DNA from: Bacteroidales bacterium
Lineage (GTDB): Bacteria; Bacteroidota; Bacteroidia; Bacteroidales; UBA932
DNA: 36,248 bases
Direction: 5' to 3'
NCBI GenBank assembly: GCA_017960585.1
Contig: JAGCYX010000064.1
Coordinates: forward strand, 1 to 36,248
The notes under the pieces are model-generated. The model was not told the origin of the DNA. It saw nothing but the letters and a program-made list of their open reading frames with translations, and made no database searches. The position numbers and the translations under genes are program-made. Numbering within the stretch: position 1 is the first letter of the stretch; every line of letters starts with the position of its first letter. Of the stretch, positions 4,121 to 18,920 are shown in pieces.

Positions 4121-4862
4121 CATTCTGCCAGAAGAAATAGAGAAAATGCCGCTGGGGTCTTTCCCCGGCAAGATTCATGTCATTGACAAGACCGGCCTCG
4201 ACTTCGTGCGGGCGATCGCCTATCTGGGCACGCAGCGGGTCATCGGTTTCGACACGGAGACGCGTCCGGTGTTCTCGCCGGGACAGCGTCACCACCACGT
4301 GGCGCTCCTGCAGCTGTCCGGGGGTGGAAAGGCGTATCTGTTCCGGGTCGGGACGATGGGCATGAGCAAGTTGCTGTGTGCGCTGATGTCGAATCCGCGT
4401 ATCATCAAGGTCGGAGCAGCCGTGCACGATGATGTGCGCGGGCTGCAGTATTACCGGAAGTTCGATGCGAAGGGGTTCGTGGATCTGCAGCAGATCGCGT
4501 ATGAGTGGGGGATCCGGGACAAGAGCGTGAAGAAGATGGCGGCGAATATCCTGGGCGTGCGGATTTCGAAGTCGCAGCAGTTGTCGAACTGGGAGGCGGA
4601 GGAGCTTTCCGGGGCGCAGCAGTTGTATGCGGCGACGGATGCCTGGGTGTGTCGGGAGATGTATCTGAAGCTGCTGCAGTCGGAGAAGCATCCGCTGACG
4701 CCGGAGGAACTGAATCCGCCGCAGCCGCAGCCTGCGCAGCCGCCGAAGGTGGAGGCGGCGCCGGCCGAAGAGGACAAACCGAAGGCGAAGAAGCGCCGTC
4801 GCCGTCATCGCAGCAAGTCGAAGAAATCGCAGGCGGAGCAGCCGCAAGTAGATAATGGTTAA
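4107..4862 (+). CDS. 3'-5' exonuclease, RNase D-like DEDDy family
   Basis: This is a predicted cytoplasmic 3'-5' exonuclease on RNA or DNA. Exo I is seen as GFDTET (Asp49, Glu51), Exo II as VGAAVHDD (Asp108/Asp109) and Exo III as YAATDAW (Tyr174, Asp178), the DEDDy pattern of RNase D and WRN-type nucleases. After residue 195 there is a Pro/Gln-rich stretch followed by a highly basic tail (KKRRRRHRSK), which could bind nucleic acid. There is no HRDC domain, so it is shorter than true RNase D. It overlaps its upstream neighbour by 14 bp and rlmI by 8 bp. Its position beside an rRNA methyltransferase fits a role in RNA maturation, but that is inference. Confidence 0.88.
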   Translation: MYKISILPEEIEKMPLGSFPGKIHVIDKTGLDFVRAIAYLGTQRVIGFDTETRPVFSPGQRHHHVALLQLSGGGKAYLFRVGTMGMSKLLCALMSNPRIIKVGAAVHDDVRGLQYYRKFDAKGFVDLQQIAYEWGIRDKSVKKMAANILGVRISKSQQLSNWEAEELSGAQQLYAATDAWVCREMYLKLLQSEKHPLTPEELNPPQPQPAQPPKVEAAPAEEDKPKAKKRRRRHRSKSKKSQAEQPQVDNG

Positions 4863-16742: not shown

Positions 16743-18920
16743 TTAAAACAACGTTAATTCTTCAATGGTTTCCTTGCTGCTTGATTCTCCGGCGGGCAGC
16801 GTGTTGCCCTCCGGGGGCATTTCCGCAGCGAAGCGAGGACGAGATTTTTTGCCCCCGGAGGGCAAGCTCGCTGACGCCGGAACGGCTTTAGGTAGCATCG
16901 CGCGGAATTCTTCTTCCGAGATGACGGGGATGCCCAGCTTCTCGCATTTTTTCAACTTTTCCGGCCCCGGCTTGGTGCCGGCCAGGAGGAACGCGGTGCT
17001 GCCGCTCACGGAGGAGCCGGCCTTGCCGCCGTGCGCCACGATGAGTTCCTTCATCCGCTCGCGGCTGATGCTGAAGTTGCCGGAGATGACGACCGTCTTA
17101 CCCGCCAGGGCGTCGGACACGGCCGCGTCCTGTCCGGCTCCGTCGAAGCGCAGGCCGGCGGCGCGCAGGCGCTCGATCTGCTCCCGGTGCTCGGGCTTGG
17201 CGAAGTAGTCGGTGATGCTGCGGGCAATGACTTCGCCCACGTCGTCCACCTCCAGCAGCTGCTCCTGGGTGGCGGCGGCGAGGGTGTCGATGTCGCCGAA
17301 ATGGCGGGCGATGCCCTTGGCCGTGGTCTCGCCCACGAAGCGGATGCCGAGTGCGAAGAGGACACGCTCGAAGGGGACCTGCTTGGAGGCTTCCAGGCTG
17401 GCCAGGAAACGGTCGGCGGAGCGGTCCTGCCATCCCTCGAGGCTGAGGAGCTGGTATTTGGTGATGTCGTACAGGTCGGCCGGCGTGCGGGCCAGGCCGG
17501 CGGCGTAAAACTGGTCGATGGTCATGTCTCCGGCCAGGATGCCCATGGCCTTGCGGCTGACGAAGTGCAGCAGGCGGCCCTTGATCTGCATCGGACAGCC
17601 GTCCTGGTTGGGACAGAACCACTTGGCCTCGTCCTCCGCCTTGACGAGCGGGGTGCCGCAGTCGGGGCAGACGCTCGGGAAGACGGGCGGCTGCGCGTCC
17701 TTGGCGCGGTGGGCGGGATCGATGCCGGTGATCTTGGGGATGATTTCCCCTCCTTTCTCGACATAGACCCAGTCGCCGGTGCGGATGTCCAGCAGGGCCA
17801 TCTGGTCGGCGTTGTTGAGGGTGGCGCGCTTGACCAGCGTGCCGCTGAGCTGCACAGGGGCGAGGTTGGCCACGGGGGTCACGGCGCCGGTGCGCCCGAC
17901 CTGGTAGTCGATGCTGAGCAGTTCGGTGCAGGCCTGCTCGGCCTTGAATTTATAGGCGACCGCCCAGCGGGGCGACTTGGCGGTGTAGCCGAGCGCGCGC
18001 TGGCAGGCGAGTTCGTTGATCTTGATGACGATGCCGTCGGTGGCGTAGGGGAGGAACTTGCGGGCCTGGTCCCAGTGGTCGATGTAGGCCTTGATCTCCG
18101 TGATGTCGTGGCAGAGGCGGCGCTCCGGCGAGACCGGGAGACCCCAGCGGGCGGCGGCGTCGAGCGCCTCGCTGTGGGAGGCGAAGTCCACGGACTCGGC
18201 GGGGACGTGGTAGAGGGTACAGATGAGGCCGCGGCGCTCCACTTCCTCGGGATTGATGAGCTTGAGGGAGCCGGAGGCGGCGTTGCGGGGATTGGCGAAG
18301 GGGGCTTCCTCCTGGGCCTCGCGCTCGCGGTTGAGGGCGTCGAAGGCTGCGTAGGGCATCAGGATCTCGCCGCGGATCTCGAATTCTTCAGGGTAATCGC
18401 CGTGGAGCTGCTGCGGGATGCTGTCGATGCGGCGGACGTTCTCCGTCACGTCGTCGCCCTGCACGCCGTCGCCGCGGGTGAGGGCCTGGGCGAGCTTGCC
18501 TTTCCGGTAGGTCAGACAGATGGCCGTGCCGTCGAACTTGAGTTCGCAGCTGTAGCTGAAACGGACGTTCTCCAGCGTCTTCTCCGCCCGCGCGACGAAT
18601 TCTTCGATCTCGGCGATGGAATAGGTGTTGCCCAGCGAGAGCATCGGGTAGCGGTGCGGCCGCTGGACGAAGCCCTGGCGGGCCTGCGACTCGGCGTTCG
18701 CGCCCACGGGTGCATCCAGGTCGGAGCCGACGCGGCGGGTGGGGGAGTCGGGGCTGTCGAACTGCGGGAACTCGGCCTCCAGGCGCTCCAGCTCATGCAT
18801 CAGCTGGTCGAACTCATAGTCCGACATCGTCGGCGCATTATCCACATAATAACGTCGGCTATTCTCCCGGAGAATCTCCCGGAGCTCGTCAATCCGTATT
18901 TTCGCGGCCTGTTCTTCCAT
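16743..18920 (-). CDS. ligA: NAD-dependent DNA ligase with extended C-terminus
   Basis: LigA seals nicks in DNA using NAD during replication and repair. The adenylation domain carries the catalytic Lys128 in ELKFDG, followed by the OB fold, a four-cysteine zinc finger (CPDC and CPNQDGC), the helix-hairpin-helix region and a BRCT domain ending around EEEFRAML. The family is usually about 670 residues and this one is 725. The excess is a C-terminal tail of about 50 residues. Most of the tail is encoded by a strong inverted repeat (16788-16881), and it ends in EELTLF, which resembles a beta-clamp-binding motif. The clamp motif is inference. This is the first gene of the long minus-strand operon, with a well-formed promoter just upstream. 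Confidence 0.96.
16788..16881. repeat. Palindromic element in the 3' end of ligA, read in frame
   Basis: A perfect 16-bp inverted repeat, TTGCCCTCCGGGGGCA at 16804-16819 and its complement at 16850-16865, is separated by 30 bp. Imperfect outer arms starting TCCGGCG (16788) and ending CGCCGGA (16881) extend each side to about 32 bp. The ligA frame reads through it, encoding a Ser/Pro/Gly/Lys-rich stretch between the BRCT domain and the last ten residues. Confidence 0.8.

Follow-up and report, generated by a model that had tools for sequence, protein, structure and literature searches.

In-frame palindromic repeats with largely locus-specific closing stems in housekeeping genes of an uncultured gut Bacteroidales genus

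Why do conserved enzymes of a Bacteroidales bacterium carry stop-free inserts whose DNA is palindromic? The question is raised by a contig of 36,248 nucleotides (hereafter the window, which is the whole contig) from a 2.06-Mb draft genome that is 81% complete. The original prediction described such inserts in three of its genes, rlmI, ispG, and ligA, and proposed that they belong to a mobile family selected for translatability. Direct reading of the sequence confirmed the three palindromic, stop-free inserts, with boundaries set by eye. The first lies in the gene of an rlmI-like 23S rRNA methyltransferase (4855..6186, plus strand; an open reading frame matching NCBIfam RlmI at E 1.4e-75, under the cut-off, and Pfam Methyltrans_SAM and PUA_3), where it spans about 129 bp on the plus strand (about 5142-5270). 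It consists of a conserved core at 5163..5248, with hairpins flanked by AAAAC and GTTTT, and of two locus-specific arms, the left one with a one-base bulge (5142..5162) and the right one at 5249..5270. The core rests on BLAST copies, alignments, covariation, and the model R1 described below, and the arms (limits by eye) on the complementarity of the pair. The second insert lies in ispG (9697..11028, minus strand; TIGR00612, E 4.4e-125) at 10113..10226, with a core at about 10129-10208 (minus strand, limits by eye); it is documented by further copies in the genome, alignment A3, and comparison with relatives. The third is found at the C-terminal end of ligA (16743..18920, minus strand; NF005932, E 3.2e-225) at 16788..16882 on the minus strand (limits by eye), and includes an inverted repeat at 16804-16865 with perfect 16-nt arms.

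When 1032 windows of 140 nt were scanned for folding, both ispG (z -4.5) and ligA (z -4.28) came within the six strongest places; by our own reading, the remaining four are wholly or mostly intergenic. Judged by its fold only (z -1.65, DNA parameters), the rlmI copy makes a weaker case, yet it is a member of a repeat family. An ungapped inverted-repeat scan was over-strict and gave no useful yield.

Searches of the genome with each insert, at E up to 1, recovered three separate sets, and we therefore distinguish at least three families, A (rlmI), B (ispG), and C (ligA), in place of the single mobile family that had been proposed. The rlmI query gave 29 matches, itself and short ones counted. 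The ispG query gave nine, five of them strong (self included), at about six places, and family B was found by BLAST in two of 61 genomes, this one and that of the relative G008 (three places). With ligA we obtained 11 matches, of which we trust the query itself and one partial copy in a U32/TrhP-like gene (L010). The short string GAAGCGAGGA, by which the ispG and ligA elements had been linked, is present in both by eye, on the gene strand in ispG and on the plus strand in ligA, but it does not make them one family because the searches keep their sets apart.

Family A is the most abundant, and we characterized it further. Its core of about 86 nt forms several hairpins, and 10 of the 19 pairs of the consensus structure have changed on both sides. 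We built a covariance model, R1, from an alignment (A2) of 20 copies of this genome and searched 61 genomes at E up to 0.001, 37 from the same genus and 24 from other families. At least 401 matches in sum were found in 33 of the 37 congeneric genomes, at least 25 of them in this genome and at least 41 in the richest one; these counts are lower bounds because at most 65 candidates per genome were scored, under stricter filters. No match was found in the 24 genomes of other families, nor did family A match viral contigs (searched with one exact pattern), phages, or plasmids (blastn). By eye, hairpin 1 starts with CGTC in many copies of G008 and G015.

The unexpected feature of family A is that this conserved folded core is closed by a stem that is largely specific to each locus. 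Among 18 of the 21 copies of this genome (L038, L039, and L044 were left out of the scoring), the two flanks of one copy were complementary with a mean score of 17.0 and a minimum of 12. Flanks taken from different copies gave a mean of 6.9 and a maximum of 18 (306 pairs), and shuffled flanks 5.9. When left flanks were compared with one another, seven of 153 pairs reached a score of 12 or more and thus counted as alike; together with the best cross-pair score this means that arms are largely but not wholly private. The rlmI copy and C57, for example, have cores that are 97% identical and arms that look unrelated. By eye, a one-base bulge is present in many arms from this genome's clade, at a distance of about 8-12 nt from the core. 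A similar arrangement is seen inside the core in G011, where locus-specific arms of hairpin 1 surround a constant tip (L212, L215, L216, L220; by eye). One SpoU locus, L324, had no arm by the measure used for these loci. The difference in closing stem between copies had been overlooked when the inserts were first described.

If these inserts are insertions, related genes should exist without them. Insert-free alleles, which the original prediction had named as the thing to look for, do exist in relatives for rlmI, ispG, a PLP aminotransferase gene, and a SpoU-type methyltransferase gene; these relatives are separate species, so that the alleles are not strain-level empty sites. Between conserved anchors, the rlmI segment is 91 aa long in the window against a mode of 44 aa (38 of 81 sequences, the window's own counted), and the excess over this modal length corresponds to about the core plus both arms. 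The two longer segments, of 94 and 101 aa, both contain A elements. Other A copies with different arms occupy the same rlmI loop in L059 and L081 (the latter by eye), and a different palindrome does so in L052 (by eye). Relatives of this gene in named assemblies come mostly from Bacteroidales MAGs, including Candidatus Cryptobacteroides species at 66-68% best-segment identity, and the genus studied here is therefore probably Cryptobacteroides-like.

Of 22 fetched ispG loci, the anchors could be applied to 14. The segment measures 101 aa here and 70-74 aa in five relatives, two of which, G008 and G015, are the closest ones. Eight other relatives have segments of 99-105 aa unrelated in sequence to the insert, and the evidence for insertion therefore comes from the closest relatives and from the presence of B repeats at other places. 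In the PLP aminotransferase (13 of 30 fetched loci looked at, seven with both anchors), the segment is 71 aa long here, 34 aa in G008, G089, and G121, and 49 aa in G142, where it looks like a remnant; G082 and G011 hold other palindromes (both readings by eye). No target-site duplication could be demonstrated by eye, the flanks of the relatives being too diverged.

The SpoU-type gene has a match in 112 of 121 genomes. Its segment is 91 aa here and 52 aa in G104, and 17 of 30 fetched loci contain an R1 match (weakest E 7.5e-4). Fifteen loci are open between the anchors, with the insert in sense orientation in nine and antisense in six; two of these (G109, G071) have one stop elsewhere in the match, and L302 was open in a separate analysis, while L330 could not be confirmed as open. 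In two loci of other species, L323 and L326, the SpoU loop holds other palindromic-looking peptides, CHPEARPELVEGRSE and CHSERSEESS. The repeats behind them look like ones known from other bacteria.

Host genes were assigned by their best NCBIfam match, several of which fall under the curated cut-off. In this genome, family A is present in genes for TldD, RsmA, DNA polymerase I (polA), YgiQ, DsbD, a PcrA/UvrD-like helicase, RNase R, the SpoU-type methyltransferase, the PLP aminotransferase, and RlmI. Family B is found in those for IspG, an ABC-F protein, AtpG, and MurE, and family C in those for LigA and the U32-like protein. The NCBIfam search gave no match for L003, L044, and L022, and we take L044 to be an FAD oxidoreductase and L022 a GSCFA protein. 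By eye, the same loops are hit in other species in SpoU, RNase R, YgiQ, PolA, RsmA, TldD, UvrD, and the L044 protein. For UvrD, the recurrence across species looks like one shared insertion. Compared with its counterpart in G008 (L233), the uvrD insertion of this genome (L038) has a hairpin 2 that is longer by about 40 nt, with a nested palindrome by eye.

We then asked how these copies stand to the reading frame of their hosts, using 101 A copies from the best-scoring places, 23 here and 78 in eight other genomes, with coding calls on the flanks from a codon-usage score trained on the window. Eighteen copies had both flanks confidently coding on one strand, and 17 of these were in frame and open; one was on the same strand in another frame, and none was in the same frame with a stop. 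In two copies the flanks coded on different strands, in 77 at least one flank was unclear or non-coding, and in four the flanks were short. Copies clearly in genes thus make up 17 of 101, a share that varies with species. The absence of stops in the 17 same-frame copies suggests that the inserts are translated rather than bypassed by the ribosome. These in-frame survivors, together with the insert-free alleles of relatives, support the view that protein-coding palindromic repeats are dispersed in housekeeping genes.

Selection for translatability is another matter, and our data do not support it. Of the six frames, 3.82 on average were open in the cores of the 34 copies judged coding (dinucleotide shuffles 3.57), and 3.57 in the other 67 (shuffles 3.45), so that cores are close to their shuffles. 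When 15 nt of arm were included at either end, coding copies had 3.71 open frames against 3.05 in shuffles, and the others 3.09 against 2.78. The higher value of coding copies is as expected of survivors in genes, and a high GC content plus selection on the host gene is enough to account for the open frames. In an AlphaFold model of RlmI (mean pLDDT 82.1), the insert (residues 98-141 below pLDDT 50) is predicted to be disordered, forming a low-confidence loop with a helix on one side and a strand on the other; this low confidence is partly expected because the remaining 24 rows of the alignment lack the insert.

Where do the arms come from? We compared four pairs taken as orthologous insertions. 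L310 and L312 are identical at 160 of 172 aligned positions. One of their left arms has 6 nt that the other lacks; these 6 nt match the right flank as its reverse complement and lengthen the stem, which makes this a templated arm difference. The right side differs by 12 nt. The direction of change in this pair is our inference. In L303/L305, 6-8 pairs have changed on both sides and 10-12 are unpaired in the other member; the corresponding figures are three and 2-6 in L232/L243, and two and 1-9 in L038/L233. Compensated and uncompensated changes are thus both present. We also considered that arms are inverted copies of conserved SpoU flanks. Permutation over 17 loci, of which two lack an R1 match, gave p 0.16 and 0.74 and no support for this as a rule, and a reading of L303/L305 as an arm copied from the conserved flank was too strong.

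The explanation that we favour, with some reserve, is that these elements are selfish, non-autonomous palindromic repeats that belong to a Bacteroidales genus and work much as those of Rickettsia do, with arms derived from fold-back copying. The folded core of about 86 nt would be copied to new places by a transposase-like activity. Insertions in genes would survive only if their length keeps the frame, the host frame stays open, and the added 30-50 residues come to lie in a loop that tolerates them; we propose that this is why inserts of different species share their loops and their housekeeping genes. Each insertion would end with a self-complementary stem, largely its own. The stem would arise during insertion or shortly afterwards, when fold-back synthesis (template switching) on the hairpin copies one side, inverted, onto the other, and this may be the general source of arms. 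Fold-back copying is the best mechanism that we have for them and is proposed with the same reserve as the explanation of which it is part. A bolder form, possible but doubtful in our estimation, is that the mobile DNA is the folded core alone, which acquires new terminal inverted repeats by fold-back copying at each insertion, owes its mobility to structure rather than to conserved ends, and leaves its hosts with added peptides.

The closest known likeness is with the palindromic elements RPE and WPE of Rickettsia and Wolbachia, which the available parts of two accounts describe as palindromes of about 100-150 bp in frame in unrelated genes (PMC10969869, PMC3767692). Family A shares with RPE its palindromic nature, its length in rlmI, its dispersal, and its in-frame insertion into unrelated genes; the likeness is drawn from such descriptions of RPE. 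Unlike RPE and WPE, it belongs to a different phylum, occurs in both orientations within one gene family, and has a largely locus-specific stem. It also differs from a MITE, whose copies share their terminal inverted repeats, in that its outer arms largely differ between copies.

The most serious alternative, although we think it rather unlikely, is that family A represents an ordinary REP/REPIN system whose movers are RAYT (HUH) transposases, with some copies inside genes and the arms secondary. Of 101 copies, 78 have GTRG (GTGG 54, GTAG 24) at the foot of hairpin 3, which recalls the tag of GTAG/CGTC-tagged REPs. As far as the available part of one survey goes, CGTC repeats are reported from Bacteroidetes, and intragenic REPs from DNA polymerase I, UvrD/REP helicase, and DNA ligase, repair genes that overlap with the hosts seen here (PMC3733652). 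The REP unit is a single stem-loop of 20-40 bp, however, and the core of family A exceeds this length, forms several hairpins, and is closed by a stem that is not conserved. The window itself contains a RAYT-like HUH gene (21553-22503, plus strand), recognized by Pfam Y1_Tnp at E 0.078 only and by an NHLHLV motif seen by eye; a sequence search of solved structures with its protein gave nothing relevant. Genes related to it are present in 32 of 37 congeneric genomes and in none of the 24 others (a second query adds one in G014), and their number correlates weakly with that of A copies (Spearman 0.34, p 0.037, 37 genomes). One HUH gene of this genome has an A copy just downstream. Against this, R1 matched in only two of 42 HUH loci (41 distinct genes, part of all HUH matches), and the two kinds of element part company in several genomes: G013 (96% complete) has at least 11 A matches and no HUH match by either query, and R1 gave no match in G010 and G018, both of which do have HUH matches. 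Across 90 loci of rlmI, the aminotransferase, and SpoU, R1 matched 29 times, but this set is an unfair control for the HUH loci, its genes having been chosen because they carry inserts. A role of HUH/RAYT genes in moving family A is not supported by these results, though still conceivable.

The HUH gene of the window appears to have repeats of its own. Directly 3' of it, at 22507-22590, lies a pair of CCGGGAGC...GCTCCCGG palindromes, and GTAG is found at its stop codon. The window has 13 instances of the 8-mer CCGGGAGC, where 3.0 would be expected, and further intergenic palindromes with it lie at 19071-19152, within 32866-33005, and at 36058-36139. Gene and CCGGGAGC repeats together resemble a REPtron that has extragenic repeats of its own and is distinct from family A.

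A second alternative is that the core enters hairpins or small palindromes already present in the target, and that the arms are old host sequence. The insert-free aminotransferase allele of G008 does hold TTTGACCGGCCGGTCAAA at the site, and short palindromes occur in a few rlmI loops of relatives (both by eye), but the loops of 76 rlmI sequences without a large insert were not clearly enriched. Five of the 76 had stems of 7 or more, with a mean per bin of 0.066 in the loop and 0.055 elsewhere; for stems of 6 or more the figures were 0.24 and 0.21, and none of 8 or more lay in the loop. The length of the rlmI insert, which over the mode amounts to roughly core and arms together, also argues against old arms, and we find this reading improbable.

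Strong folding and covariation might instead mark functional structured RNAs or regulatory elements in the host transcript. Such a role is very improbable, given that both orientations occur within the SpoU gene family, that many copies are not clearly in genes, that six loci searched against Rfam gave no family at the gathering score, and that compensated changes can also be obtained by template switching, as the available part of one report has it (PMC8794818). An assembly or binning artefact, conceivable where the genomes of the genus are drafts of five or more contigs and many named relatives are metagenome-assembled, is barely credible for copies that recur in 33 genomes, including G016 with about eight contigs, in frame and as diverged orthologs.

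The reading as selfish repeats with fold-back arms also has partial precedents in other systems. In the available portion of an account of Nematomorpha mitochondria, inverted repeats lie within translated genes and template switching is proposed (PMC6649704); there both arms encode conserved protein, and that portion describes no dispersed conserved core. Template-switch mutations are reported to make and mend perfect stems, coding DNA included (PMC8794818, PMC8604942), and the parts of these reports available treat them as a process of mutation rather than as a component of dispersed repeats. Among the matches listed for in-gene palindromic elements in Bacteroidetes, Bacteroidota, or Cryptobacteroides, no title or abstract opening described them. 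In-frame palindromic elements and intragenic REPs are already known, and the new part is the locus-specific stem. Our results extend in-frame palindromic inserts to an uncultured gut Bacteroidales genus, in numbers (at least 41 A matches in one genome, 17 of 30 fetched SpoU genes) that allow the tolerance and retention of peptides in proteins to be studied. The stems offer a way to test template switching as a builder of the ends of mobile repeats, and for annotation, the inserts account for extra peptides in otherwise conserved enzymes.

Two further observations concern A copies outside genes. In G016, the eight copies that we fetched (L261-L268) look intergenic, with long near-perfect arms (by eye), and none scored as in-gene; insertion of family A in genes is therefore not equally common across species. 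In L036, a copy at around 451-534 lies between two convergent genes, presumably LysM-like and RarA-like, and its near-perfect arms seem by eye to contain both stop codons.
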